From the NCBI GenBank assembly GCA_030068145.1, contig JAPJBO010000089.1, positions 310,001 through 374,000 of the forward strand: a DNA stretch of 64,000 bases. The letters run 5' to 3'. This document shows, piece by piece, positions 10,566 through 63,317 of the stretch (the stretch's first letter is position 1; every line of letters starts with the position of its first letter). The notes below the pieces were generated by a model. It saw only the letters and a program-made list of their open reading frames with translations. It was not told the origin of the DNA and searched no databases. Made by a program: the position numbers and the translations under genes. Origin of the DNA: Diplonema papillatum. Its lineage: Eukaryota > Euglenozoa > Diplonemea > Diplonemida > Diplonemidae.

Positions 10566-11330
10566 TCAGAATCTCACACCCGCGAGGTGGCAACGTCTCT
10601 CATGCGCGCGGAGTCCCCTCAGACCTTGGAACCTCTGGCCATCCCTCGTGCACTCGATGGAGCAGTGTTGACATCGCAGCACCGGGGAACCCGTAAACTG
10701 CTGTTCAAACAACTGACCATGCGGTGTCAGACATTGGGAGTCCGGCAAGGGCGGGCAGGGTGGCGAATTACCAAAGGGGCAGAAGGAGTCAGGTGAGCCT
10801 TCCGACTGCCGGCTCATCAAATTACCGGCTGAACCTGGGGGTGCAGGCAAGTCGGGTAGTCGATCCTGAGTAGGAAGCACCATGGAGGGTGACGGGGCAC
10901 GGACAGTCATGTCGTGGGCATTCCGGGGGATCCGGACAAAGGCCGCGAGGTAAACGTCACCCCACGGAATGTCGTCGACAGAGGTGACGTGCAGGTCGTC
11001 GAAGAGGATCCACCCCGTGTCTTGCGCAACGTACGTGACGTAGTGCCCGCTAGCCGTATCCTCCCCCATGTGCACCACGACGGCTGCGAGGCGTAGCAGA
11101 TGGTCCGGCGGTCCGAAGAAGGGGGGCAATTTCACGTCATTCTGGCGCCTGGCACCGTTTCTCGTGTAGATGCCAAACTGCATCAGAACACATTCAGCTG
11201 TCAGACGGAGATCCGTGCTTTCAACAACCGTACCTACAGCCTTGCAGTCGCATACTCTCTCCGGATTTACAAACCCGTGCACGTGGAGAGAATCTTCCAG
11301 CTTCCTTCCGCAAGGAATTTGCAGGGGGGG
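10566..11330 (-). pseudogene. C-terminal half of a ubiquitin-specific protease with a C2H2-like finger
   Basis: The His box is clear: AAVVVHMGEDTASGHYVTYV, then GWILFDDLHVTSVDDI and DVYLAAFVRI, matching the USP (peptidase C19) consensus 'H.G...SGHYVTYV...W..FDD..V..V'. Upstream, VCDCKAVGTVVESTDLRL and KLPPFFGPPDHLLRL fit the region before the His box. The Cys box and the first half of the domain are missing, as are zinc-ribbon Cys pairs. After a Pro/Ser-rich linker comes CQHCSIECTRDG..LRAHERRCH, a finger of the type found in mobile-element proteins. It sits inside a TIR-bounded element, so it may be captured host sequence or an element-encoded protein. Without its catalytic Cys it cannot be an active protease as seen; an upstream exon is possible but not found. 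Confidence 0.65.
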
Positions 11331-11859
11331 GAGGGGGGGGCAGGGTACCTGTAATCCGGGGCCCGGGCCCTGGAAAATTTTCCAGGGATTTTGGCCCTGA
11401 ACGATTACCAAAGGAAAAGCTCTTTGGTACGAGATGCAATTCGTTTACAATTCCATTCCAGGGCCCCAGACTGTCCTTGAGCTCAACGGATTCAAAAGCG
11501 TTCAAAAACGTCCTCGGAATGTATTTTTCGACACAGCCACGAAACCTGAAGGAGGTTTTCAGGTTCTGGCAGGTCTAGCTGGCTGCCAAAAGGGTACCAC
11601 GGCTCGCCCAAGGTCACAGGTGGCAAGTTAGGCGTTGAAAAACAACATTTTTTTTTTTTTTGGGCCGGAATCCCTAAAAACCCGCATTTCGGAAAGTTTT
11701 TGTCCCACATTTTTCCAGGGCATTTTGACCATTTCACCTGAGAGCCTCCGCCCGCTCAGCCCATATGGTAAATGCACGACTGTGAGCTTTTTTTATCAAA
11801 TTTATCAAGTTTATTTCTTGATTTTTTCTCGTCTTGCTCTCCGCTTGTTGTGGAAGCTG

Positions 11860-26316: not shown

Positions 26317-27949
26317 AAAGTGGTTGACCGGTCAAAGTCAGTGGCTCGTGAGTGTCCACGGTGTGTTGTGGTGCGTGACTGGTCATCAAGGCGCCATGGT
26401 CGCTGGTCAAAAGGAGTCGTGATGTCCGTGATTGGCTGAGTTTGCACTTGACTCGCCTGCACCTAGTCGTGTGGCGCTCACTGCACACTCCCCTTAAGAA
26501 GTAGTGCGCGTCTCGGGTAAGCAGCAAGCCGCCGATGCCAAAACCCCCCCCTACAACGACACGCCCACCTATTTAAGGGTCGAGATCTCGTTCGTTAACG
26601 GAATCAACCTGACAAATCACTCCACCAACAAGGAGCGGCCATGCACCACCACACAATTCATCGAGAAAGAGCTCTCAATCTGTCAATCCTTGAGATCATC
26701 CTGACCTAGTAAAATTCCCCGTGTTGAGTCAAATTAAGCCGCATACTCCACGCCTCCGTTCAAAGCTACGGAGGTGACCCGCTGGAGGGAGCAGATGGAC
26801 ACAGACCACGTTGGTCTACTCCGGGATCTTGAGTTGGCGTACGTGGCCGGTAAGAGGCATCTTCCAGGTGGCGATCTTCTCTCTGATTAGGTTGAAATGC
26901 AGGGTCGTCACAGCTGCAACCACGGGTTGGGACATGCTACCGGAGCAAGTTAAGCTCGACAATGACCTGTTGCTCGACCTCCGGATGCAACGCACAAAGA
27001 TGCGGATAAACAAGCGACGCTCGAGAGTGGAGACAGCTTGCGTTTCGTTCTTTTTTCCGTCAGACCGAGAAACATGAAAGGAGAGACAGGAGTTAACAGA
27101 AGAAATAGAAAAGTTGGTGGGGAATGGTATTCTATGGGGGTGCTGGGCGAAAGCACAGACTAATTTCTTTTTGACACAGACGCGCACGATCGCGGCGAGG
27201 AACGGGTGAGTTCGGGTCTTCGAACTGACAGAAAGACTTCGCCTGGAATCAGATGGCTGCCGGGAAGGACAAGTCTGAAGGCAACGACACGCGTACTTTG
27301 CGCAGCGGGACATCAGCTCGTCGCGTTTTCGGTCCCTGATTCCAGCTGTGTACGTTTGCGCAGGGCCTTTCCCAGGATCACTAGTTCTCGAGCTCGAGGC
27401 GGTGCACTTTTTCCTTTCGGTTTTTCCATTTGGGGACATAAGGGGTAGTAGCGCTTCACCATGTGCTACTGGCTGTGGCTGTGTACGTAAAGCGATGTTC
27501 ATCCCCCGTTTTTCGTCAACTGTCACAACTGCACAGGGATCCCACGCAAAACGTTTGGCGGAGCTGCTCTTTTCCCCGCCTAAAAGACAGCCACTCGACG
27601 GCAGTACCAAGACACGGGAGTTGCGCATTTTGCACATGATAACGGGGTTGTTTTCATACGGAAACCCCCGAGCTCGGCTACCTTTGACAATCATGGGATG
27701 CTCTGTGGTTGACCAATCTACGTGCGTCTAGCATTTTCTAAGGTATCTTTGCGCATAGTAGCAGACTGCGGCTAGGACTTCACGGTCTTCATCGTCGAGG
27801 ACCGACGACAAAAGAGTGAAGCGAGGCGAATGAAACACGAGAGAAGGGGTGAGGGGGTGGGGGAACTACTGTGGTTGCTGTTAACAAAAAAGAAAGTCAT
27901 CGGCGTTCTGCACAAACAAAAGCCTCCCCGCTTTGCTGACCCATTCACA
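26317..27949. other. No convincing gene
   Basis: Includes a 292-codon minus frame (26816-27694) that is Ser/Arg-rich, has no third-position bias and matches nothing known to me; see rejected items. No repeats stand out. Confidence 0.4.
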
Positions 27950-28090: not shown

Positions 28091-28799
28091 ATTTGTCCCC
28101 CCCCAAGGTTCGATCGGGCACTCCGAATAGGTCCAGACGTCTCAACCATAAACCCCAGTGAAGGAGCAATGATTAAGATTTGAACGCATCTCCAACTCTT
28201 ACCACTAGTCGGTTTCAGGGACTTTTAACCCTCTTCTTCAAAGTTCTTTGCATCTTTCCATCACTGTACTACCTTCAGGTGATATGTAGCCTATGGAGGT
28301 GACTACTCCTTGTTTTCGCCGCGGAGTGGGTCCATAGTTCGCGGCCGTTTTCTGGGCCCAAACGAGCAACCGACTCGTTTTCCTGGAGTTTCGGAGCGTT
28401 TTGGGGCCACCTGCGTGAATAGCTCAGCATTCCCAAAGTGAGCGACTCGTGCTAGCAAGGAGTTAACCAACATGGCTCGTCGAGGAAATACGGAACTCTT
28501 CCAGGAGATTTACCTCGACGCCAGTTGTGTCCCCAAGCAGCTGGCGCCACATTCCGGATATACACCGGTTCAGGCTTGGGCTCCGCCCTGTTCACTCGCC
28601 GTTACTAGGAGCATCGCTGTTGCTTTCTTTTCGTGCGCTGAGTGGTTGGCTTCCAGCTTTGGGTTTCCGATGACCCTGTTTTTTTCGCCGGAGTGGGGCC
28701 AGAGTTGTGTGGCCTCTGCGCGGCATGCCAGTTCATTTGCACGCCGCACGCGACGCTGCCAGCTCCCCCTGAGACCGTACGAACTCCGGGTTTGAGTGT
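28091..28799. other. No gene seen
   Basis: A 107-codon plus frame starts at 28472 (MARRGNTELFQEIYLDASC) but soon becomes compositionally random and runs into the repeat at 28800. Confidence 0.35.
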
Positions 28800-29159: not shown

Positions 29160-30178
29160 GTGCTCCAGCACCGGGTGGTGGGGGAGTTTAACTGCGCGGT
29201 CCATTTTGCGAGTGTGGCACACCACACCCGACACTTTGACCGCACACAGTTAACACCCCCACCCGGTGCTGGATTACACCGTGCAGGTCCATTTTGCGAG
29301 TGTCGCACACAGTTAACTCCCCACCCCAGTGTGCCACACCCGACACTTTGACCGCACACACTTAACACCCCCCACCCGGTGCTGGATTACACCGTGCAGG
29401 TCCATTTTGCGAGTGTCGCACACAGTTAACTCCCCACCCCAGTGTGCCACACCCGACACTTTGACCGCACACACTTAACACCCCCCACCCGGTGCTGGAT
29501 TACACCGTGCAGGTCCATTTTGCGAGTGTCGCACACAGTTAACTCCCCACCCCAGTGTGCCACACCCGACACTTTGACCGCACACACTTAACACCCCCCA
29601 CCCGGTGCTGGATTACACCGTGCAGGTCCATTTTGCGAGTGTCGCACACAGTTAACTCCCCACCCCAGTGTGCCACACCCGACACTTTGACCGCACACAC
29701 TTAACACCCCCCACCCGGTGCTGGATTACACCGTGCAGGTCCATTTTGCGAGTGTCGCACACAGTTAACTCCCCACCCCAGTGTGCCACACCCGACACTT
29801 TGACCGCACACACTTAACACCCCCCACCCGGTGCTGGATTACACCGTGCAGGTCCATTTTGCGAGTGTCGCACACAGTTAACTCCCCACCCCAGTGTGCC
29901 ACACCCGACACTTTGACCGCACACAGTTAACACCCCCACCCGGTGCTGGATTACACCATGCAGGTCCATTTTGCGAGTGTGGCACACCCGCATATCCAGT
30001 GTGCCACACCCGACTTTTTGACCGCACAGTTAACTCCCCACCCGGTGCTGGAATACACCGTGCAGGTCCATTTTGCGAGTGTCGCACACAGTTAACTCCC
30101 CACCCCAGTGTGCCACACCCGACACTTTGACCGCACACACTTAACACCCCCCACCCGGTGCTGGATTACACCGTGCAG
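29160..30178 (+). repeat. 113-bp satellite, about nine units
   Basis: GGTGCTGGATTACACCGTGC starts the unit. Unit starts at about 29271, 29384, 29497, 29610, 29723, 29836, 29948, 30050, 30163. The central units are almost identical; the first is partial and the 29948 unit is shortened. Each unit contains two diverged half-motifs (GTTAACTCCCCACC and TTAACACCCCCCACC). Confidence 0.95.
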
Positions 30179-31678: not shown

Positions 31679-34600
31679 TTATTTTGCAAATGCTTGAGCT
31701 ATCTTTGTGTCTGTGCTTTCAGTCGAAGAAAAAGGCGAAAGAAGGCATACAGAGGCGGCGATGGTTTTTATGTACGCGGGCGCGTCGTGCACCGCAGGGC
31801 GGAAGGTGCACTGCTTTTGCTCTTCTTCGGCTTTCCGCGCTTTTTCGGCCGCGATGTGGAGGGTTCGTTGCTGCGATCGCGTCTTGGCCCATTCAACGTA
31901 TGCGGTAGGATCGTTCCTGACGGACACCTGCAGGGAGTGTAAGGAGAAGTGGGCGCTGTAGTAGTAATAGTATGTGTCATCCTAATCCGAGAACAAGTCA
32001 GGGAGAAGAACGGAGCAATTTTTACAAACAAACGAGTGACTCAAGGTGGCCGCTTGAGCGGCGCCAATCCGAGCGCACACAGCAGCAGTGACGCGTCGGC
32101 AGTATTTGCACTTCAGGATGGGGCTGCGTCGACGGCTAGCGTGTGTCGGCAGAGGGTGCAGTGGTCGGAGCAAGCTTGTGTAGTGGGCGCTGATAAATAC
32201 AAAATACACAGAAGGGCGCCGCCCGGTGCTTACTTTCGACAGAGTGAGCCGGTCCATTCCCTCTTTATAGACTGTGATAGACCGAAGAATACAGCACCAG
32301 GCAATTCGATGCAGCTCTAGGGACTAGGGATGGACCTGATAGACCGTGGTGGACCGTGATTCACTGTGATAAACAGCGGCAGGCACTTCGATGCAGTTTC
32401 AAGAGATACGGACGGACCGGCTCATAGAGGCTGGAGGGAGGACTTATATGTGCGCCTCCCGAAGATCCCACCGCGGAAGACGGAGGGGAGGGGGCGACGC
32501 CCAACACACCACGGCTGGCAGGGCACCCGGCCGAGAGCTGGGCCTCGCTTGGAAAGACTGCTCGGGGGGCTAATCACTATTAATGGTATGTTAGTATTAA
32601 CCCTTTACGGACGGGGGCCATGTATTTATGTCGAAAACGACACAACCCGCGCTGGAGTTCGGGCACTGGGCCTTCAGAGTAAAGACACGTCAAAAAGGAT
32701 CAATGTTTGCTGCTGTGAAGAGATATGTTACGAAACCTTTCCAAGGAGCACCAGGTTTCCCATTGGGGAGTCGTAAAACTCTCGAGTTTGGCCCATGGAT
32801 TCCACAAGGCTTTCTGCGCACTGGACAACGTACCTCCTCTTCCGTGCCGGCGGCACACACGAAACATACCTTACTCTGGACCGTGGATGGACCCCGGTTC
32901 AAGGCGGGGGCAAACGTGCACGCGTTGAGCTCGCTTTCGAACCGCTCGAGCGCCCTTCGCTTGCGCTTCTCCTCCCTGCGCACCTGGTCGCCGACCGACA
33001 GCTCCCTCGTGGACCGCGGCGGCTGGATCTTGCCTAGCGGCGTGATGGTGGGCTTGAAGCAGCACTCCGCGTCGACCACCTCGTCTCGCCCGCTTTGGTC
33101 CTTTTCCCTCAGCACCCGCGACCGGCGCCGCTCCAAGTCGGTGCTCAGCCGGTTGTAGAACCCGGGCGCGCTCTTGTGCTGCAGGATGTCGTAGCTCTTC
33201 GGGTTCAGCTGCGGCCGCCGCTCGGCGTTGTCCGGGTCGGCCTCCTTCAGCAGCTCCATGCGCTCGATCCGCCGGTCCTCCTGCTCCTTCAGCCGCGCGA
33301 AGAACGTCTGCAGCCGCGCCTCGTTCCTCTCCTGCTGTCCGAAGCCCTCCGCACCGCCGCCACCGCTCCGGTCGAAGAGGTCGTCGTCCATCGAAAGCCC
33401 TCCGGGCCGGGGGGTGCGGCGGGCGTGGCTGGCGGGCGACTGGGCGGGCTGGGACGCGGTGCCCGTGCTGCGCTGCGGCCTGCCGTGCTTCGGCATCGAC
33501 AGCCGCTCGAACGCGTCTGTGTTCAGGTACGCGCAAGACGCGGACGCCGGGTAGTCGGTGATGATCTTCGGGTGGAAGGTGCACTCTCTGTCGTCGACGG
33601 TTTCGTGCGTGCGCTTCGTTCCCCTCGACCTCGTAGACGGCGACACCGACCGGTTCAAGTTGTCATCCTCCGCCGACGAAACCCCCAGCGGCGACGTCGT
33701 GTCCCGCTGCGGGTGCGTGTCCCGGGTGTCATTCCCGCTGAAGTAGTGGTCGAAGACCGCGGAGGGGGGTTGCTGCTGCTGCTGCTGCTGCTGCTGGGAC
33801 ACCCCCGGGCTCACGGATCTTTTGTACTGGGCGGGGCCTTCGGGGTTCAGGTACCGCGGTTCGATGCGCTGAGTCCACGCGCTTTGGTTCAAAGTCGGGC
33901 GGAAGGTGCACGGGGCCGTTTCTTCGGCGAGCTTCTTCTTTCGCTCGGCTTCGAGCGATTGCGCGGTTTGGGCGGAGGCGAGGTACAGGCGCTTGATCAC
34001 GTTCTGCTCCTCGACGAGCTTCTGGCCCGCGAGCGTCGCCTTGCTGAGCTTGTTGATCTTCGGCTGGAAGGAGCACATCTTCTCCTCCTCCTGCACCCGC
34101 TTGAGGCGCTTGCTTTCGAGTTGCGCCTCCTTGTCGTGCCGCCACATCTCGCTTCGGCAGTACACCTGCGTGTTCGGCGTGCTCTTCGGCAGGCTCGGCG
34201 CGCGGTCCTTCGTCGGCTTCGCCGGAGAATCCCCGCTGTGCTCGCCGTCGGCAGCCGCCCTGCCCCGTGTACGGCTCGTGTGCCGGCGAGTGCCCGACGG
34301 CTGCCGCTGCTGCTGCTGCTGCTGCTGCTGTTTGCTCGCTCTGGGCCGCTGCTGCTGGTGCTGCTGTTGGTGCTGGTGCTGTTGCTGTTGGGGGTAAGGT
34401 TCGTCGGGGTGGGGCTTGCCGGCGCGTTGCTGGAGGAGGGCCTCGTACTCTTCCATCGCGGCGACCGAGCTGGGCGACTCGGCCACGTTGTCGTTGCTGT
34501 CGTCGATGCCGGCGTCGGAGGCGGAGGAATTCTGCTCGCGCGGGGGCTGCTGCTGCTGCTGCTGCGGGTGGTGCTGGTAGACGTGCCGCTGCGCCTGCTC

Positions 34601-34894
34601 GTTCCGGAGCGCCGACGCCGCGAGTGCGTCCCAATCGGGCTCCGCCGCCTTCGGTGCGGCCCCGAGGGAGTCGGAGGACGTGCGGAACCGCACGGTTTGC
34701 TCCTGGCCGTCTTCCTTCCGCGTCGAGCGGCCCCGCCCGGTCTCCGCCTCCTTCCCCGTGCGCCACAGCTGCGAGATCAACTCGTCGGTCGTGTCGCCGC
34801 TGCCTCTGCCGCTGCCACCGCCGCCGCGGCCCGTCGCACTCGCGTTGAACCCGCCGGCCCCTGGCACCACGTTTCCGTAGGGGTCGCGGTGCAT
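31679..34894 (-). CDS. Low-complexity protein with six CxFxP motifs, probably flagellar or cytoskeletal
   Basis: Exon 1 (34894-32870, 675 codons) starts MHRDPYGNVVPGAGGFNASA; a GTATGT donor follows. Exon 2 begins at 31927 after CTGCAG in the same phase and reads VSVRNDPTAYVEWAKTRSQQ; it ends at a GTATGC donor (31751) or reads on to a stop at 31679. Motifs: CSFQPKINKLSK (~274), CTFRPTLN (~330), CTFHPKI (~440), CCFKPTI (~610), CTFAPALN (~658) in exon 1 and CTFRPAVHDAP in exon 2. Such C-x-F-x-P repeats with Lys/Glu-rich helices are typical of flagellar, basal-body and coiled-coil proteins of protists. PolyQ/polyH tracts (four or more) fill residues ~105-205. An intact MITE lies in the first intron. 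Two truncated 5' copies lie upstream. The function is inferred from motif style only. Confidence 0.65.
32245..32424. mobile_element. 180-bp MITE (family C) in an intron
   Basis: Same TIRs and length as 26137-26316, in inverted orientation. It lies inside the 942-bp intron of the CxFxP gene. Confidence 0.88.
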
Positions 34895-34934
34895 CCCAGC
34901 CGCGTGTGAGAGCGGGGGGAGGGGTTCCTGGGGT

Positions 34935-53541: not shown

Positions 53542-54020
53542 GTAAAAGTCTCCGTAAGCTATACCCTGGAACTTGACTAGACGAGCGACTGAACCGTACC
53601 ACACGCAACTGACAGGAGATGCTGGGGGTTGAAACCAGGTGCACCAAAAAAGTCGGTCTCGTCGAACCTGCCGCCGTGCTCTGCGAATCGGGCGTCGAAG
53701 AAGGTGTCGCAAAGCCCGGGGCAGGGTAGTGGAGGTGTTCTCCTTTTCGTTCAACTTCTTGAAATCAGCCACAGTGCGGTGGCAGCTGTTCGGTCTTCAA
53801 CACTCCCCCGCCCTTCCCAGGTCGGGGCTCCGATCGAGAAGCAGCAGTGAGCGTCGGATTGCCTTGGCGACCATCAACCGGTGTTGATACAGGCTGGTGT
53901 CTTTCGACGACGTGTTCAACTATTTCGTTGTCTATTTGCGGACCGCGAGGGACACATCTCTCTCTGTTGCCTTCTTTGGTACGGCAATCGGTCTGCGGAC
54001 GGGCAAGTTTAACTTGCCCG
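53542..54020. other. No gene seen
   Basis: Unique sequence between the candidate exon and the 3' repeat of the giant gene. Frames on both strands lack coding character. Confidence 0.4.
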
Positions 54021-54320
54021 CGTTGGGTTGGTGAAGACTGGAGTCGACAGCTGCCGTTGCCCAATCGCTCGGTCACCCGGGTAGTTGGACGTAGTACCTC
54101 GCACCTTTCGCCAGCAACGGTACCAAATAGGCCGTGTCGTATCTGCAGGGGCGGGCAATCTCGTCTGCCGCGTTGGGTTGGTGAAGACTGGAGTCGACAG
54201 CTGCCGTTGCCCAATTGCTCGGTCACCCGGGTAGTTGGACGTAGTACCTCGCACCTTTCGCCAGCAACGGTACCAAATAGGCCGTGTCGTATCTGCAGGG
54301 GCGGGCAATCTCGTCTGCCA
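54021..54320 (-). repeat. 150-bp tandem duplication covering the 3' end of the giant gene
   Basis: CGTTGGGTTGGTGAAGACTG occurs at 54021 and 54171 and the two 150-bp units are nearly identical. The inner unit contains the last ~33 codons (..AKGARYYVQLPG and stop) plus 3' flank; the outer unit is a non-functional extra copy of that end. Confidence 0.93.
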
Positions 54321-57300
54321 GGCAATGGCGGAACATAGGGTCGTACAACCACGCGCTTATGGGGACCGCGGAGTCATTGAACGGATGCCGGTAGTTGGGA
54401 GGTGGAAGTGCGTGGTTTTGCAATTCGATCCCCCACTTGTCCCGGAGGTAAGCACCGAAGGCGGGGTCCATCTCCGCAGTCGGCCGCCGAACGTGCTTCG
54501 CGGACAAGCCAGGTGCATCGCACAGAGCCACGTTCGCAGCCTGCGCCCGGGCTGCGAGCTCGATTTCGCCGCCTCCGGCCGGCCAAACGTTCTCGTCAAA
54601 CAGCCCCAGCTTTTCGTAGCCCAGCCTCGTGAACCCGAAAAGCGCCCAATCAAAAAGTCGCACGGCGCCGCATGTGGAAACGAGGGGTCTCGCTTGGATC
54701 TGGAGGAATTCCGTGAGGCTCCCCGGCTCCGGTCTGACCCCCGCGCGTCCTATGATGAGCAGCTCGGCGCCCACCGTGCCAAACGCGTGGTGAGCCATTT
54801 GGTTCCAGCAGGACGTGAAGCCCGCGGGAATCGTGTTGTGCGTGACATAAAACCTATCCTCCCCCAGCACGCGCTGGGCCTCGGCCAGGAAGGCGAGGAC
54901 CGACGTGCCGTTCTCGGCGCCCTCAAACACGACGTGAACAGACCGCACGCCGAAGTCGAAGCTCCACAGCAACCCGCGCACCGACGACGCATCCGCGCCG
55001 CCGCACAAAATCCCGTAAGCGGGGACCACCGCATCGCCGGCAGCCGCGCCGCTACTGTGCAAAGTTGTCGTCAAGTGTTTCAGTAACCGAGCGTCTTCCT
55101 CCGCCGACTCGCCCACATGCGGGCTTGCTTCGGCTTGCGCCATGGCTATCAATTTTGGAAGCAACTCCGCTGTGTGATACAAACAATGATGTTTTTCTCG
55201 GTCCATTAGACCTCCTCCGTGTTCGACGCATTGTCGGTACCCTGTATCATACAACCACGCCGTCTTCGGCACCCTCGTATCGTTGAACGGGTGCATGAAA
55301 TGTCCTGTGATAGGATTCGTCCGCTTGTGGATGTCGAACCCCCACTTCTCCAAGAGATACGCCTTCCCGTTGTGGTGACGTGACACTTGTGCCTGCAAAG
55401 CGCCATTTCTCTTGAAGTTGACGCTGCCCAGGTGGGTGAAAGACATGCCGGGGACTATGCAAAGTGCTACATTCGACGCTTGTGCACGGACTATCATTTC
55501 GATGTCCTCTCCGTACGCAGGCCAGATGTTCTCGTCAAAGCTGCCTAGTTGTTCGTAACCGAAACGAGTCAATCCGAACAGTGCCCACTCATTGAAGTGC
55601 AACACGCCGCACGTCTTCACCCGACTCTCACTCCGGGCATAGCGAAGGAAAGCAGCCATTGACCCAGCCTTCGGGATCAAGTCGGCGTTGCCTATCATTA
55701 ACAAATCAACCCCTGCCACCTCAAACGCTCTTTCTCTCATCTGGTTCCAGCCAACGGCCACACCAGCGTTAGCTTCATTGTGTCTGAAGAAGAACTTGTC
55801 TTCGCCAAGCACGCGGCTTGCTTCCTTCAAAAACGGCAGAATTTCTCCTCGCGGGTCCTGTCCGTTGAAGATCACGTGAAACCGTTGCACGCCAACGTCG
55901 AAGCTGCCGAAAAGCCGACGAGCGAACGACGCATCGATGGAGGTGCAAAGCATGCCGAACGCAGGGACAACTTCATCACTTGGTTCAGTTTGTCCCCTGG
56001 TAAGCACGAGTGACACTTGGTCGAGCAGCGTTCTATCCGCTGGAGTCATGCTCGCCACTGCCACGCTTAACGCATTGCCCTTGTTTTCGTGGAGCTCGGT
56101 GCTTGTCGGGGGAGCAACTACACTATCGTTGTAGTACAGTGCTCCCGCTGTCAGCTTTGGAAGCAACTCCGCTGTGTGATACAAACAATGATGTTTTTCT
56201 CGGTCCATTAGACCTCCTCCGTGCTCTACACACTGTCGGTACCCTTTATCATACAACCACGCCGTCTTCGGCACCCTCGCATCGTTGAACGGGTGCATGA
56301 AATGTCCTGTGATAGGATTCGTCCGCTTGTGGATGTCGAACCCCCACTTCTCCAAGAGGTACGCCTTCCCGTTGTGGTGTCGGGACACTTGCGCCTGCAG
56401 AGCGCGGTTCTTCTTGAAGTTGACGCTGCCCAGGTGGGTGAAAGACATGCCGGGGACTATGCAAAGTGCTACATTCGACGCTTGTGCACGGACTATCATT
56501 TCGATGTCTTCTCCGTACGCAGGCCAGATGTTCTCGTCAAAGCTGCCTAGTTGTTCGTAACCGAAACGAGTCAATCCGAACAGTGCCCACTCATTGAAGT
56601 GCAACACGCCGCACGTCTTCACCCGACTCTCACTCCGGGCATAGCGAAGGAAAGCAGCCATTGACCCAGCCTTCGGGATCAAGTCGGCGTTGCCTATCAT
56701 TAACAAATCAACCCCTGCCACCTCAAACGCTCTTTCTCTCATCTGGTTCCAGCCAACGGCCACACCAGCGTTAGCTTCATTGTGTCTGAAGAAGAACTTG
56801 TCTTCGCCAAGCACGCGGCTTGCTTCCTTCAAAAACGGCAGAATTTCTCCTCGCGGGTCCTGTCCGTTGAAGATCACGTGAAACCGTTGCACGCCAACGT
56901 CGAAGCTGCCGAAAAGCCGACGAGCGAACGACGCATCGATGGAGGTGCAAAGCATGCCGAACGCAGGGACAACTTCATCACTTGGTTCAGTTTGTCCCCT
57001 GGTAAGCACGAGTGACACTTGGTCGAGCAGCGTTCTATCCGCTGGAGTCATGCTCGCCACTGCCACGCTTAACGCATTGCCCTTGTTTTCGTGGAGCTCG
57101 GTGCTTGTCGGGGGAGCAACTACACTATCGTTGTAGTATAGTGCTCCCGCTGCCAGCTTTGGAAGCAACTCCGCTGTGTGATACAAACAATGTTGTTTTT
57201 CTTGGTCCATTAGACCTCCTCCGTGCTCTACACACTGTCGGTACCCTTTATCATACAACCACGCCGTCTTCGGCACCCTCGCATCGTTGAACGGGTGCAT

Positions 57301-60300
57301 GAAATGTCCTGTGATAGGATTCGTCCGCTTGTGGATGTCGAACCCCCACTTCTCCAAGAGATACGCCTTCCCGTTGTGGTGTCGGGACACTTGTGCCTGC
57401 AGAGCGCCATTTCTCTTGAAGTTGACGCTGCCCAGGTGGGTGAAAGACATGCCGGGGACTATGCAAAGTGCTACATTCGACGCTTGTGCTCGAACTATCA
57501 TTTCGATGTCTTCTCCGTACGCAGGCCAGATGTTCTCGTCAAAGCTGCCTAGTTGTTCGTAACCGAAACGAGTCAATCCGAACAGTGCCCACTCATTGAA
57601 GTGCAACACGCCGCACGTCTTCACCCGACTCTCACTCCGGGCATAGCGAAGGAAAGCAGCCATTGACCCAGCCTTCGGGATCAAGTCGGCGTTGCCTATC
57701 ATTAACAAATCAACCCCTGCCACCTCAAACGCTCTTTCTCTCATCTGGTTCCAGCCAACGGCCACACCAGCGTTAGCTTCATTGTGTCTGAAGAAGAACT
57801 TGTCTTCGCCAAGCACGCGGCTTGCTTCCTTCAAAAACGGCAGAATTTCTCCTCGCGGGTCCTGTCCGTTGAAGATCACGTGAAACCGTTGCACGCCAAC
57901 GTCGAAGCTGCCGAAAAGCCGACGAGCGAACGACGCATCGATGGAGGTGCAAAGCATGCCGAACGCAGGGACAACTTCATCACTTGGTTCAGTTTGTCCC
58001 CTGGTAAGCACGAGTGACACTTGGTCGAGCAGCGTTCTATCCGCTGGAGTCATGCTCGCCACTGCCACGCTTAACGCATTGCCCTTGTTTTCGTGGAGCT
58101 CGGTGCTTGTCGGGGGAGCAACTACACTATCGTTGTAGTACAGTGCTCCCGCTGTCAGCTTTGGAAGCAACTCCGCTGTGTGATACAAACAATGATGTTT
58201 TTCTCGGTCCATTAGACCTCCTCCGTGCTCTACACACTGTCGGTACCCTTTATCATACAACCACGCCGTCTTCGGCACCCTCGCATCGTTGAACGGGTGC
58301 ATGAAATGTCCTGTGATAGGATTCGTCCGCTTGTGGATGTCGAACCCCCACTTCTCCAAGAGGTACGCCTTCCCGTTGTGGTGTCGGGACACTTGCGCCT
58401 GCAGAGCGCGGTTCTTCTTGAAGTTGACGCTGCCCAGGTGGGTGAAAGACATGCCGGGGACTGTGCAAAGTGCTACATTCGACGCTTGTGCACGGACTAT
58501 CATTTCGATGTCTTCTCCGTACGCAGGCCAGATGTTCTCGTCAAAGCTGCCTAGTTGTTCGTAACCGAAACGAGTCAATCCGAACAGTGCCCACTCATTG
58601 AAGTGCAACACGCCGCACGTCTTCACCCGACTCTCACTCCGGGCATAGCGAAGGAAAGCAGCCATTGACCCAGCCTTCGGGATCAAGTCGGCGTTGCCTA
58701 TCATTAACAAATCAACCCCTGCCACCTCAAACGCTCTTTCTCTCATCTGGTTCCAGCCAACGGCCACACCAGCGTTAGCTTCATTGTGTCTGAAGAAGAA
58801 CTTGTCTTCGCCAAGCACGCGGCTTGCTTCCTTCAAAAACGGCAGAATTTCTCCTCGCGGGTCCTGTCCGTTGAAGATCACGTGAAACCGTTGCACGCCA
58901 ACGTCGAAGCTGCCGAAAAGCCGACGAGCGAACGACGCATCGATGGAGGTGCAAAGCATGCCGAACGCAGGGACAACTTCATCACTTGGTTCAGTTTGTC
59001 CCCTGGTAAGCACGAGTGACACTTGGTCGAGCAGCGTTCTATCCGCTGGAGTCATGCTCGCCACTGCCACGCTTAACGCATTGCCCTTGTTTTCGTGGAG
59101 CTCGGTGCTTGTCGGGGGAGCAACTACACTATCGTTGTAGTACAGTGCTCCCGCTGTCAGCTTTGGAAGCAACTCCGCTGTGTGATACAAACAATGATGT
59201 TTTTCTCGGTCCATTAGACCTCCTCCGTGCTCTACACACTGTCGGTACCCTTTATCATACAACCACGCCGTCTTCGGCACCCTCGCATCGTTGAACGGGT
59301 GCATGAAATGTCCTGTGATAGGATTCGTCCGCTTGTGGATGTCGAATCCCCACTTCTCCAAGAGATACGCCTTCCCGTTGTGGTGACGTGACACTTGTGC
59401 CTGCAAAGCGCCATTACTTTTGAAGTTGACGCTGCCCAGATGCATGGAAGCCACGCCAGGGACAGTGCAAAGTGCTACGTTTGACGCTTGCGCACGGACT
59501 ATCATTTCGATGTCCTCTCCGTACGCAGGCCAGATGTTCTCGTCAAAGCTGCCTAGTTGTTCGTAACCGAAACGAGTCAATCCGAACAGTGCCCACTCAT
59601 TGAAGTGCAACACGCCGCACGTCTTCACCCGACTCTCACTCCGGGCATAGCGAAGGAAAGCAGCCATAGACCACGGCATCGGGATCAAGTCGGCGTTGCC
59701 TATCATTAACAAATCAACCCCTGCCACCTCAAACGCTCTTTCTCTCATCTGGTTCCAGCCAACGGCCACACCAGCGTTAGCTTCATTGTGTCTGAAGAAG
59801 AACTTGTCTTCGCCAAGCACGCGGCTTGCTTCCTTCAAAAACGGCAGAATTTCTCCTCGCGGGTCCTGTCCGTTGAAGATCACGTGAAACCGTTGCACGC
59901 CAACGTCGAAGCTGCCGAAAAGCCGACGAGCGAACGACGCATCGATGGAGGTGCAAAGCATGCCGAACGCAGGGACAACTTCATCACTTGGTTCAGTTTG
60001 TCCCCTGGTAAGCACGAGTGACACTTGGTCGAGCAGCGTTCTATCCGCTGGAGTCATGCTCGCCACTGCCACGCTTAACGCATTGCCCTTGTTTTCGTGG
60101 AGCTCGGTGCTTGTCGGGGGAGCAACTACACTATCGTTGTAGTACAGTGCTCCCGCTGTCAGCTTTGGAAGCAACTCCGCTGTGTGATACAAACAATGAT
60201 GTTTTTCTCGGTCCATTAGACCTCCTCCGTGCTCTACACACTGTCGGTACCCTTTATCATACAACCACGCCGTCTTCGGCACCCTCGCATCGTTGAACGG

Positions 60301-62313
60301 GTGCATGAAATGTCCTGTGATAGGATTCGTCCGCTTGTGGATGTCGAACCCCCACTTCTCCAAGAGGTACGCCTTCCCGTTGTGGTGTCGGGACACTTGC
60401 GCCTGCAGAGCGCGGTTCTTCTTGAAGTTGACGCTGCCCAGGTGGGTGAAAGACATGCCGGGGACTGTGCAAAGTGCTACATTCGACGCTTGTGCACGGA
60501 CTATCATTTCGATGTCTTCTCCGTACGCAGGCCAGATGTTCTCGTCAAAGCTGCCTAGTTGTTCGTAACCGAAACGAGTCAATCCGAACAGTGCCCACTC
60601 ATTAAAGTGCAACACGCCGCACGTCTTCACCCGACTCTCACTCCGGGCATAGCGGAGGAAAGCAGCCATTGACCCAGCCTTCGGGATCAAGTCGGCGTTG
60701 CCTATCATTAACAAATCAACCCCTGCCACCTCGAACGCTCGTTCTCTCATCTGGTTCCAGCCAACGGCCACACCAGCGTTAGCTTCATTGTGTCTGAAGA
60801 AGAACTTGTCTTCGCCAAGCACGCGGCTTGCTTCCTTCAAAAACGGAAGAATTTCTCCTCGCGGGTCCTGTCCGTTGAAGATCACGTGAAACCGTTGCAC
60901 ACCGACGTCGAAGCTGCTGAAAAGCCGACGAGCGAACGACGCATCGATGGAGGTGCAAAGCATGCCGAACGCAGGGACAACTTCATCACTTGGTTCAGTT
61001 TGTCCCCTGGCAAGCACGAGTGACAGGTGGTCGAACAGCGTTCTGTCCTGTAGATCCATGCTCGCCACTGCCACGCCCAATAAATTGCCCTTGTTTGCAA
61101 CCGCGGAGCTATTTGAGGGTGCAACTACCATGTAGCCTTGTCCCGCGTTTGCGGCTTGAAGCCCGGGGGAACTCTGGAGAACCACACTTTGGTTGTAGTA
61201 CAGAGCCCCGGCAACTAGCTTTGGAAGCAGTTTTTTCGTGTTGTACAAGCAGTGTTGGCCTTCTTGGTCCATGCGTCCCCCGCCTTCCTGGACGCATTGT
61301 CGGTACCCTTTGTCGTACAACCACGCGTACGTCGGCACCCTCGCATCGTTGAACGGGTGCCTGAAGTGCCCTGTGATCGGAATTGCCTGTTTGTGGATGT
61401 CGACCCCCCACTTTTCGAAGAGGTAAGCCTTCCCGTTGTCATGCCGGGTGACTTGCTTTTGCAAGCCACCGCCCGTTTTGGAATTGGCGGCACCGAGGTT
61501 GTGGAACTGCATGTCCGGCGCAGTACAGACGGCAACGTCCGATGCCTGCGCCCGGACGGTCATTTCGATGTCTTCCCCCCCCGCTGGCCAGAAGTTCTCG
61601 TCGAAATACCCCAGCTTCTCGTAGGCAGATCGGGTCACGCCGAACAGGGCCCACTCCTCGAAGCTGATCACTCCGCAGTTTCTCGCCTCCTCCTGTGCGA
61701 AGGCCAGGTATTGGGCGAAATAGCCGGGCTTCGGGTGCAAATGCGGACTTCCGACGACGACGAAGTCCTTCCGCAACTGGTTGAACCCGTGCCGCAGAAC
61801 CTCGTTCCATCCCGCAGCGACCCCTGCGTGCATGGCGGTGTGCCGGAAGGTGAATTGTTCGGGACCGAACCGCGCCGCTGCGTTCTCGAACACGGCGACG
61901 ATATGAGCACTGGGGTCACCTCCGTTTAACGTCACGTGGAACGCTTGCACCCCGACATCCAAGCTCTCCAAGAGGGTCGCCGCAAAGTGCGCGTCTGCCG
62001 GCGTGCAAAGCATGCCGAAGACGGGAATGGTTGTCGCTGGGTCATAATCTTTCCCACGAGCCAGCGCCTTCGCAATGGCATCCAGGAGCATTTCGCCGGT
62101 ACCCGGCAGGTTTCGGTGCGGGGTCCTGTTCGGTGGTCGCGCGGCGCGGGTCTTGTTGGGTCCTTGGTTGTCGTACGAGTGAACGGGTCCCCACGGTATC
62201 TCGCCCATTTCTGCCTGCGACTGGATGACGAAGACGAGGCCCGTGACCACGGCCAGGCAGGCGAGCACCACAGTCCGCGGTCGCAGCCGCGGCGGGCGCG
62301 CCTTCGGACGCAT
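54223..62313 (-). CDS. Giant type II membrane protein with eight GT2-like glycosyltransferase modules
   Basis: 2,696 codons, one exon, ATG at 62313. Residues ~13-33 (RTVVLACLAVVTGLVFVIQS) form a signal anchor, so the rest should be lumenal (ER/Golgi) or outside. Eight modules follow, starting near residues 95, 445, 779, 1113, 1447, 1781, 2115 and 2430. Each has the GT-A/GT2 (rhamnosyltransferase-like) order: an initial VVPAFGMLCTSIDASF strand, NEANAGVAVGWNQ, LLMIGNADLIPKAGSM at the metal-binding position, WALFGLTRFGYEQLGSFDEN and WPAYGEDIEMIVRAQ. Modules 2-7 are almost identical. Module 1 has GSPHLHP instead of GNADLIP; module 8 has GRAGVRP and GGGEIEL instead of YGEDIEM, so both end modules have probably lost activity. 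Donor and acceptor unknown. Truncated copies flank both ends. Confidence 0.75.
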   Translation of the reverse strand: MRPKARPPRLRPRTVVLACLAVVTGLVFVIQSQAEMGEIPWGPVHSYDNQGPNKTRAARPPNRTPHRNLPGTGEMLLDAIAKALARGKDYDPATTIPVFGMLCTPADAHFAATLLESLDVGVQAFHVTLNGGDPSAHIVAVFENAAARFGPEQFTFRHTAMHAGVAAGWNEVLRHGFNQLRKDFVVVGSPHLHPKPGYFAQYLAFAQEEARNCGVISFEEWALFGVTRSAYEKLGYFDENFWPAGGEDIEMTVRAQASDVAVCTAPDMQFHNLGAANSKTGGGLQKQVTRHDNGKAYLFEKWGVDIHKQAIPITGHFRHPFNDARVPTYAWLYDKGYRQCVQEGGGRMDQEGQHCLYNTKKLLPKLVAGALYYNQSVVLQSSPGLQAANAGQGYMVVAPSNSSAVANKGNLLGVAVASMDLQDRTLFDHLSLVLARGQTEPSDEVVPAFGMLCTSIDASFARRLFSSFDVGVQRFHVIFNGQDPRGEILPFLKEASRVLGEDKFFFRHNEANAGVAVGWNQMRERAFEVAGVDLLMIGNADLIPKAGSMAAFLRYARSESRVKTCGVLHFNEWALFGLTRFGYEQLGSFDENIWPAYGEDIEMIVRAQASNVALCTVPGMSFTHLGSVNFKKNRALQAQVSRHHNGKAYLLEKWGFDIHKRTNPITGHFMHPFNDARVPKTAWLYDKGYRQCVEHGGGLMDREKHHCLYHTAELLPKLTAGALYYNDSVVAPPTSTELHENKGNALSVAVASMTPADRTLLDQVSLVLTRGQTEPSDEVVPAFGMLCTSIDASFARRLFGSFDVGVQRFHVIFNGQDPRGEILPFLKEASRVLGEDKFFFRHNEANAGVAVGWNQMRERAFEVAGVDLLMIGNADLIPMPWSMAAFLRYARSESRVKTCGVLHFNEWALFGLTRFGYEQLGSFDENIWPAYGEDIEMIVRAQASNVALCTVPGVASMHLGSVNFKSNGALQAQVSRHHNGKAYLLEKWGFDIHKRTNPITGHFMHPFNDARVPKTAWLYDKGYRQCVEHGGGLMDREKHHCLYHTAELLPKLTAGALYYNDSVVAPPTSTELHENKGNALSVAVASMTPADRTLLDQVSLVLTRGQTEPSDEVVPAFGMLCTSIDASFARRLFGSFDVGVQRFHVIFNGQDPRGEILPFLKEASRVLGEDKFFFRHNEANAGVAVGWNQMRERAFEVAGVDLLMIGNADLIPKAGSMAAFLRYARSESRVKTCGVLHFNEWALFGLTRFGYEQLGSFDENIWPAYGEDIEMIVRAQASNVALCTVPGMSFTHLGSVNFKKNRALQAQVSRHHNGKAYLLEKWGFDIHKRTNPITGHFMHPFNDARVPKTAWLYDKGYRQCVEHGGGLMDREKHHCLYHTAELLPKLTAGALYYNDSVVAPPTSTELHENKGNALSVAVASMTPADRTLLDQVSLVLTRGQTEPSDEVVPAFGMLCTSIDASFARRLFGSFDVGVQRFHVIFNGQDPRGEILPFLKEASRVLGEDKFFFRHNEANAGVAVGWNQMRERAFEVAGVDLLMIGNADLIPKAGSMAAFLRYARSESRVKTCGVLHFNEWALFGLTRFGYEQLGSFDENIWPAYGEDIEMIVRAQASNVALCIVPGMSFTHLGSVNFKRNGALQAQVSRHHNGKAYLLEKWGFDIHKRTNPITGHFMHPFNDARVPKTAWLYDKGYRQCVEHGGGLMDQEKQHCLYHTAELLPKLAAGALYYNDSVVAPPTSTELHENKGNALSVAVASMTPADRTLLDQVSLVLTRGQTEPSDEVVPAFGMLCTSIDASFARRLFGSFDVGVQRFHVIFNGQDPRGEILPFLKEASRVLGEDKFFFRHNEANAGVAVGWNQMRERAFEVAGVDLLMIGNADLIPKAGSMAAFLRYARSESRVKTCGVLHFNEWALFGLTRFGYEQLGSFDENIWPAYGEDIEMIVRAQASNVALCIVPGMSFTHLGSVNFKKNRALQAQVSRHHNGKAYLLEKWGFDIHKRTNPITGHFMHPFNDARVPKTAWLYDKGYRQCVEHGGGLMDREKHHCLYHTAELLPKLTAGALYYNDSVVAPPTSTELHENKGNALSVAVASMTPADRTLLDQVSLVLTRGQTEPSDEVVPAFGMLCTSIDASFARRLFGSFDVGVQRFHVIFNGQDPRGEILPFLKEASRVLGEDKFFFRHNEANAGVAVGWNQMRERAFEVAGVDLLMIGNADLIPKAGSMAAFLRYARSESRVKTCGVLHFNEWALFGLTRFGYEQLGSFDENIWPAYGEDIEMIVRAQASNVALCIVPGMSFTHLGSVNFKRNGALQAQVSRHHNGKAYLLEKWGFDIHKRTNPITGHFMHPFNDTRVPKTAWLYDTGYRQCVEHGGGLMDREKHHCLYHTAELLPKLIAMAQAEASPHVGESAEEDARLLKHLTTTLHSSGAAAGDAVVPAYGILCGGADASSVRGLLWSFDFGVRSVHVVFEGAENGTSVLAFLAEAQRVLGEDRFYVTHNTIPAGFTSCWNQMAHHAFGTVGAELLIIGRAGVRPEPGSLTEFLQIQARPLVSTCGAVRLFDWALFGFTRLGYEKLGLFDENVWPAGGGEIELAARAQAANVALCDAPGLSAKHVRRPTAEMDPAFGAYLRDKWGIELQNHALPPPNYRHPFNDSAVPISAWLYDPMFRHCLADEIARPCRYDTAYLVPLLAKGARYYVQLPG
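55165..61045 (-). repeat. Six 1,002-bp coding repeats arranged as three two-module units
   Basis: Identical landmarks recur every 1,002 bp, for example TATCATTAACAAATCAACCC at about 55695, 56697, 57699, 58701, 59703 and 60705. Variant sites alternate: AAGAGATACGCC at 55363, 57359, 59361 against AAGAGGTACGCC at 56361, 58363, 60365; likewise KKNRALQ against K(R/S)NGALQ. So the array grew by copying a 2,004-bp pair. Confidence 0.95.
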
Positions 62314-62365: not shown

Positions 62366-62413
62366 TGTGAGTGAGAACTTGCTTGAAATCTGGGGTTGTA
62401 GGGTCATTAGTAA
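62366..62413 (-). promoter_or_regulatory. Conserved element (copy i), upstream of the giant gene
   Basis: GTGAGTGAGAACTTGCTTGA, AATCTGGGGTTGTAGGGTCA. About 53 bp upstream of the ATG. Confidence 0.55.
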
Positions 62414-62499: not shown

Positions 62500-62694
62500 C
62501 GCCTATATGGGTACGCTCTCTTCAGAGTGCAACGGTTCTGCGTGCTGGTGGTTGGTCGTGCGGTACGGGTCTTGTTGAGTGGCTCCCACGGTATCTCGCC
62601 CTCGCCCGTGTCCGCCTGCGGCTGGATGACGAAGACGAGGCCCGTGACCACGGCCAGGCAAGCGAGGCCGCAGCCGCTGCGCCTTCGGACGCAT
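62500..62694 (-). pseudogene. Truncated 5' copy of the giant gene (copy 1)
   Basis: Starts MRPKAQRLRPR like the intact gene, then a deletion shifts the frame; the signal-anchor codons continue in another frame (LACLAVVTGLVFVIQPQA). It ends near IPWEPLNKTRTAR. Its own copy of the conserved element lies at 62746-62795. Confidence 0.88.
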
Positions 62695-62745
62695 CTTCCG
62701 GCTCGCACTCCTCCCCCCCCCCTCTGCGAACCACCTCCTCCTGAG

Positions 62746-62795
62746 TTCTGTGAGTTAAAATTCGCTTGAAAATCTGGAGTTGTAGGGTCAGTAAT
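62746..62795 (-). promoter_or_regulatory. Conserved element (copy j)
   Basis: GTGAGTTAAAATTCGCTTGA, AAATCTGGAGTTGTAGGGTC; 52 bp upstream of the pseudogene start codon, the same spacing as at the intact gene. Confidence 0.55.
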
Positions 62796-62937
62796 ATGAG
62801 CCACAGGTGTGCACACTGTCTATTTACTTCGTGTTACGGACGGTGCATGCTAGGGTGGGCTGTGGAGTCTGTTTGCAGTGTATCCGTCTATTTGGGTATG
62901 CTCTCTTCAGAGCACGGCGTTTTTCCTTGAAAGTGTC

Positions 62938-63060
62938 GGTTCTGCGTGCTGGTGGATAGTCGTGCGGTACGGGTCTTGTTGAGTGGCTCCCACGGTATTT
63001 CGCCCATGTCCACGAAGACGAGGCCCGCGACCACGGCCAGGCAAGCGAGCACCTCGGCGA
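62938..63060 (-). pseudogene. Truncated 5' copy of the giant gene (copy 2)
   Basis: Retains only CGAAGACGAGGCCCG..CACGGCCAGGCAAGCGAGCA (signal anchor) and the CACGGTATTTCGCCCAT part with internal deletions; no start codon. Followed by GCTGGGGTTGTAGGGTCAGT, the end of the conserved element. A still shorter relic lies at 63240-63300 (GTGCGGCACGGGTCTTGTTG). Confidence 0.8.
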
Positions 63061-63317
63061 CCCCCTCCTCCTGAAAAGCTGGGGTTGTAGGGTCAGTAGT
63101 ATGGTGCACAGGCGTGAACACTTTCTATTTACTTCGTGTTACGGATGTTGCATGCTGGGGTGAGCTTTGGAGTCTGCTTGCAGTGTATCCGTCTAGTTGG
63201 GTACGCTCTTTTATAGAGTGCAAAGCGTTTTTCCTTGAAAGTGTCGGTTCGGCATGCTGGTGGTTGGTCGTGCGGCACGGGTCTTGTTGAATGGCCGGCG
63301 GTTCGTGGATTGGACTT

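Follow-up and report, generated by a model that had tools for sequence, protein, structure and literature searches.

The multi-domain glycosyltransferases compared here join two or so domains in one polypeptide, as in K4CP and heparosan synthase 2, whose two unlike modules use different donors, or in GLT25D1, which has two domains. In a window of 64,000 nucleotides from Diplonema papillatum (the whole stretch of DNA analysed: GenBank assembly GCA_030068145.1, contig JAPJBO010000089.1, positions 310,001 to 374,000 of the forward strand), one gene encodes eight copies of a single GT-A module behind one anchor, with catalytic losses at the ends. The best overall explanation, held with moderate confidence, is an anchored secretory glycosyltransferase of eight modules and six working sites.

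The GT-A core conserves the DxD and xED motifs, the glycine of the G-loop and a C-terminal histidine (C-His), with K4CP as the prototype (PMC7185993). COSMC (C1GALT1C1) is a GT-A pseudo-transferase in which DxD and xED are gone and whose role is that of a chaperone or scaffold (PMC7185993). Euglena gracilis and E. longa produce the small subunit of RuBisCO (RBCS) as a polyprotein in which eight repeats follow a targeting sequence; in E. longa, one of the repeats is highly divergent (PMC4938576). D. papillatum is a marine, predatory euglenozoan (PMC10161547) and is genetically tractable (PMC8611851).

Organisation of the array

The gene lies on the minus strand, from 62313 to 54223 of the window, as an open reading frame (ORF) that begins with ATG, ends with TGA and is not interrupted by a stop codon; there are no N bases in the window. 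In 200 random sequences of equal length, generated with a first-order Markov model, the longest open frame had a median of 188 and a maximum of 457 codons. The open frame is consistent with a single-exon gene. The parts of the array are as follows.

54223 to 62313, minus strand: eight-module GT-A glycosyltransferase ORF, 2,696 codons
62218 to 62274, minus strand: predicted N-terminal signal anchor (hydropathy), residues 14-32, preceded by six basic residues
60979 to 62028, minus strand: module 1 and following linker, residues 96-445; SPH at the DxD site, C-His replaced by Asn, xED kept
59977 to 60978, minus strand: module 2, residues 446-779; three motifs intact
58975 to 59976, minus strand: module 3, residues 780-1113; motifs intact, most private changes of modules 2 to 7 in the first 831 nucleotides
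57973 to 58974, minus strand: module 4, residues 1114-1447; motifs intact
56971 to 57972, minus strand: module 5, residues 1448-1781; motifs intact
55969 to 56970, minus strand: module 6, residues 1782-2115; motifs intact, one nucleotide from module 4 over 1,002
55027 to 55968, minus strand: module 7, residues 2116-2429; motifs intact, junction to module 8 diverged
54226 to 55026, minus strand: module 8, residues 2430-2696; RAG at DxD, GGEIE at xED, C-His kept

Each module opens with the motif [VI]P[AV][FY]G[MI]LC, at residues 96, 446, 780, 1114, 1448, 1782, 2116 and 2430, giving spacings of 350, then 334 five times, then 314 residues. Identity among modules 2 to 6 is 96.4-99.7% over 334 amino acids. 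Module 7 is 97.8% identical to module 4 over the first 275 and then diverges into the junction with module 8, while modules 1 and 8 share about 60% and 49% with the core. The segment at residues 14-32 is the only one in the protein to reach a 19-residue mean hydropathy of at least 1.6. A first-pass annotation, made from the letters of the window, had described a protein of about 2,700 residues with eight modules behind one signal anchor, six of them central and nearly identical and the end ones most diverged; the mapping agrees with it on these points. The count of eight rests on one assembly.

Fold and family assignment

A GT-A Rossmann-like fold was predicted for the modules. The AlphaFold model of module 4 has a predicted local distance difference test score (pLDDT) of 92.0, and that of module 8 has 89.2. 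The fold is supported by the module 4 model together with profiles, and the GT2-like ancestry proposed in the annotation by profile matches and motif layout. A search of the PDB with one module alone gave no match, and the best E-value with a Diplonema-only profile was 0.5; a deeper profile was used for this reason. A profile lacking the Diplonema rows served as a control against circularity. One alignment (A4, tandem modules 7 and 8 with single-module rows) was dropped for folding, as the single rows were split across both modules.

In Pfam, the window protein scored 27.0 bits for PF10111 against a cut-off of 27.3, and PF00535 was not among the matches listed. The three-module paralogue described below passed both PF00535 (37.2 against 23.3) and PF13641 (36.1 against 27). 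The PF00535 cut-off was also passed by the relatives P0007, L067 and L054, with L048 below it. Two other families were considered and rejected. For GT7 (beta4GalT), the whole protein gave 77.2 bits to Glyco_transf_7C, but module 4 alone gave 12.7 against a cut-off of 23. Enzymes of GT27 (ppGalNAcT) have an additional lectin domain; no lectin family is in the Pfam list for P0001, and the core carries NAD rather than DxH, which only the SPH of module 1 resembles.

The phage profile PHROG 29879 matched module 4 (1.8e-5), P0002 (8e-8) and P0003 (4.8e-8), and matched four phage-type relatives at 1.2e-20 to 8.3e-39. The Diplonema array also suggests that a phage-type GT2 family was recruited into a eukaryotic secretory pathway. 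No two-module ORF was found among the 85 matching ORFs of the phage-type family in 80 kept loci. In viral contigs L052, L055, L056 and L081, as judged by eye, a methyltransferase-like region precedes the related GT2 domain in a fusion. In L079, L087 and L120 such a domain lies within open frames of about 980-1,200 amino acids.

Active-site motifs

All three motifs, with DxD present as NxD (NAD in the core), occur in six of the eight modules, namely 2 to 7, and the active-looking core of the first-pass annotation is upheld. Module 1 has lost the Asp and C-His (SPH; His to Asn) and retains xED; module 8 has lost the Asp and xED and retains C-His. The altered sites, where the annotation had also placed SPH, RAG and GGEIE, are:

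61741 to 61749, minus strand: DxD-equivalent SPH of module 1
54739 to 54747, minus strand: DxD-equivalent RAG of module 8
54559 to 54576, minus strand: xED-equivalent GGGEIE of module 8

The claim that both end modules are degenerate stands for module 8. It is less sure for module 1, in which C-His is also lost but xED kept, because SPH is similar to DxH, the form that the DxD site takes in GT27; module 1 may have weak activity.

The motifs were also followed in 36 relatives, made up of 20 viral loci (from the 80 kept) and 16 proteins (from the 22 non-Diplonema ones of a profile search). The xED Glu and the following Arg are present in 36/36, and the xED Asp in 35, with one gap. C-His is found in 33; of the other three, one has a gap and two have Glu. 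The NxD Asp is present in 31. Within Diplonema, all three motifs are present in 16 of 19 tabulated modules, of which three are partial and one was put together from two parts; the deletion copy on C681 and the N-terminal half modules on C76 were left out. The exceptions, all of them terminal, are modules 1 and 8 and the module that opens the three-module paralogue (GCG, GEG, His lost). Every full-length module tabulated retains at least four of the module's five cysteines. Their retention even in degenerate modules is in keeping with a domain that folds in the secretory pathway.

Relatives in the D. papillatum genome

A protein search with module 4 matched DIPPA_07946 and DIPPA_01728 of D. papillatum, encoded on C76 and C1054; no paper on either was found in the open-access literature. 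In addition to the single-module gene P0002, C76 carries two multi-module loci, and likely degenerating copies lie elsewhere.

L036:5388-8474, minus strand: three-module paralogue on C76, 1,028 amino acids; first module without DxD, xED and C-His, modules 2 and 3 intact
L038:1000-5902 and L037:4642-5686, minus strand: intron-split locus on C76, with two full and several half modules
L044:4509-5378, plus strand: copy with an internal deletion, matching parts 95% identical to P0003; likely a degenerating paralogue
L042:4577-5713, plus strand: split single-module copy; likely a degenerating paralogue

In the intron-split locus, an identical likely splice acceptor, AACAACAACAG, stands ahead of two half modules, immediately in front of the DxD strand, and EukProt P0005 spans only the start of this locus. 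Counted by contig, single copies are found on C1054, C426 (split, with an internal TAG) and C681 (internal deletion), and a decayed fragment on C161. The genome searches (queries module 4, P0003 and the three-module protein) score best candidates only, so the family count is a lower bound. The module 4 protein search missed P0005, a 45% relative, and the profile search took in no more than 8,000 candidates, so these searches do not show that other diplonemids lack the family. With the full-length protein as query, 7,998 candidates were scored and the only match was the protein of the window itself.

The first-pass annotation knew of no family with this layout. This has to be narrowed, as the same genome holds the three-module paralogue, the intron-split multi-module locus and intact single-module paralogues; a second eight-fold array was not among the best candidates scored in the genome search. 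Tandem GT2 domains were already known, and no eight-fold array of one glycosyltransferase module was found in print in a search of the open-access literature, most subscription papers being outside its scope; the matches included a paper about the tandem domains of GLT25D1.

Proposed function

The product would be a type II membrane protein residing in the Golgi or endoplasmic reticulum (ER), whose one signal anchor carries the eight GT-A modules on linkers. The modules would be GT2-like enzymes of the xED type, and an inverting mechanism is predicted as probable because the xED Asp is present, by the rule given in PMC7185993. Each of modules 2 to 7 would bind nucleotide-sugar and metal through NxD and C-His, with the xED Asp as base, and all six would add the same sugar. 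Near-identical sites on one tether would raise the local enzyme concentration, and the chain could modify a secreted acceptor, long or multivalent, at many positions while staying bound to it. Module 8, and probably module 1, would be pseudo-transferases that persist because they help in folding or packing or bind the acceptor. The ORF, module count in this assembly, anchor and fold predictions, motif states, selection signal and paralogues were computed.

Several points weigh against this proposal. An intact chain in the cell is assumed, as is its non-cleavage, and the near-identity of the core may equally well come from recent duplication without advantage. The last module of the three-module paralogue is intact, so paired caps are no general rule. 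The terminal position of the three degenerate modules is statistically weak, at 4/20 by chance in a count over the two complete multi-module genes that treats modules 2 to 7 as a single one. With NxD at the DxD site, full metal dependence is not certain.

The processive or multi-acceptor polymerase with substrate-binding caps put forward in the first-pass annotation is possible. In a further reading, identical modules of the one chain would pass a long acceptor from site to site while the inactive ends grip it, and module number, altered by unequal exchange, would set glycosylation density or reach as a genetically tunable molecular ruler. Such a ruler is doubtful.

Alternative explanations

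The strongest rival to the anchored multi-site enzyme, though unlikely, is a polyprotein translated whole and cut in its linkers into single soluble transferases, with repetition for gene dosage. It ranks first because Euglena makes eight RuBisCO small subunits likewise, one E. longa repeat being divergent. The Diplonema protein shares the near-identical tandem units behind one targeting sequence, and the linkers preceding modules 3 to 7 are almost identical. However, no decapeptide like NMAAMTGEKD was seen by eye in the linkers of the window protein, and they hold no dibasic site; NDS sequons occur in five of them. Linkers of the multi-module paralogues (AKAVPPAAPPVAAVPP, PPPPPPAAAVPSLPPPPP and a short PPAPADD stretch) are Ala/Pro-rich and unlike in length and sequence, and no short motif common to linkers across paralogues was seen by eye. 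A single N-terminal hydrophobic segment is present in 7/7 family members examined (three of the sequences incomplete), and free soluble modules would depart from the single-module paralogues examined, which keep their own anchor. There is also little pure spacer sequence to cut. A helix ahead of the module is confidently modelled (residues 5-23 of the module 4 model), and as a similar segment precedes the module in single-module proteins, it seems to be part of the module.

Expansion without gain is also unlikely. Here an ordinary single-module enzyme, for which one active module is enough, would have undergone unequal exchange, its module number drifting like a minisatellite. Modules 2 to 6 differ at 1-36 of 1,002 nucleotides, with one difference between modules 4 and 6 and 8-36 in the other pairs. 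Dozens of repeat-bounded gene models are reported in this genome (PMC10161547), and the eight-module gene fits that form, with gene parts repeated in tandem beside it on both the 5′ and 3′ sides. Partial 5′ copies lie upstream of the three-module gene too (two copies of its first 80 codons, 85-86% identical). The flanking features are:

62390 to 62410, minus strand: possible spliced-leader acceptor CTAATGACCCTACAACCCCAG, 76 nucleotides before the ATG
62505 to 63295, no strand assigned: decayed copies of the 5′ region (untranslated region and anchor-coding part), upstream of the gene
54018 to 54319, no strand assigned: 150-bp direct repeat in two copies, 99% alike, which includes the final codons of the ORF and its stop

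Drift alone fits poorly with the selection signal. The ratio of nonsynonymous to synonymous substitution rates (dN/dS) is 0.12-0.28 among modules 2 to 7 (5 of 15 pairs computed) and 0.15 between modules 1 and 4, where dS is near-saturated. In the three-module gene, the first module compared with the second gives 0.67. The low values suggest an array selected as protein, and the higher one a weaker constraint on the degenerate module of the three-module gene. The motifs are intact in six modules, the frame is maintained across seven junctions, at least one further gene has a multi-module layout, and the window modules form a group of their own in the tree described next.

In a maximum-likelihood tree the eight window modules group together (90/93) and those of the intron-split locus apart (94/91), with neither fork starred, the bootstrap not settled and the three-module gene placed firmly in neither group. 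From these separate groups, the multi-module layout probably arose more than once. The array itself would have formed by local tandem duplication and in-frame unequal exchange. Of ten two-state sites in the first 831 nucleotides, five alternate between modules, four unite modules 3 and 7, and one splits modules 2 to 4 from 5 to 7. A strict two-module period is only suggested, as the alternating sites all fall within nucleotides 560-612 and a conversion tract fits too.

An assembly error, in which near-identical 1-kb units were mis-joined and the true module number is lower or higher, is very unlikely. The single base between modules 4 and 6 and the merging of short-read and long-read contigs in the assembly (PMC10161547) would allow it, but the other core pairs are distinguishable and PacBio reads with Canu were used (PMC10161547). 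Furthermore, no second array was among the best candidates of the genome DNA search, and modules 1 and 8, like the dissimilar paralogues, would stand whatever the true module number. Least probable is a non-catalytic array of carbohydrate-binding or surface-structural units, which the degenerate ends, one anchor and many near-identical domains would suit but the conservation of three catalytic motifs in modules 2 to 7 and three tabulated single-module paralogues would not.

Other features of the window

26426 to 26733 and 28167 to 28660, minus strand: partial matches to eukaryotic small- and large-subunit ribosomal RNA (Rfam, 129.8 and 99 bits), apparently ribosomal DNA fragments
10566 to 11411, minus strand: ubiquitin carboxyl-terminal hydrolase match in an ORF (PF00443, 36.3 bits against a cut-off of 23.9)
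29222 to 30178: 113-bp tandem array, 8.6 copies, 94% matches
33095 to 34909, plus strand, and 32690 to 34894, minus strand: overlapping open frames of 604 and 734 amino acids with no Pfam match, adjoining GCT/TGC-rich repeats; probably composition effects

Comparison with known systems

K4CP (PDB 2z86/2z87) and heparosan synthase 2 (8vh7/8vh8) resemble the Diplonema protein in having GT-A GT2 domains in one polypeptide and the same layout of DxD, xED and C-His. To our knowledge, neither has a signal anchor of the present type. GLT25D1, a collagen galactosyltransferase, is described as holding tandem glycosyltransferase domains in one ER protein. PHROG 29879 ('galactosyl transferase', phage-type GT2) is homologous to one module over nearly its whole length and shares FDENxWPAYGED, KWG and HPFND with it; the loci examined carry a single module, against eight here. 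The ppGalNAcT enzymes of GT27 and beta4GalT1 of GT7 likewise have one GT-A module, and GT27 is retaining with DxH (PMC7185993), whereas the Diplonema core has NxD and xED. The one-, three- and eight-module relatives in one genome form a natural series for studying the benefit of multivalent enzymes in the secretory pathway.

COSMC offers a precedent for a folded, non-catalytic module 8, and perhaps module 1, through the same loss of DxD and xED as in module 8. It is, however, a separate GT31 protein, unfused to its active partner. The Euglena RuBisCO polyprotein is, like the Diplonema array, euglenozoan, with eight repeats behind one targeting region; it differs in serving the plastid, in being cut at decapeptide linkers and in containing no glycosyltransferase (PMC4938576). 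The array bears on whether diplonemids use polyproteins as Euglena does.

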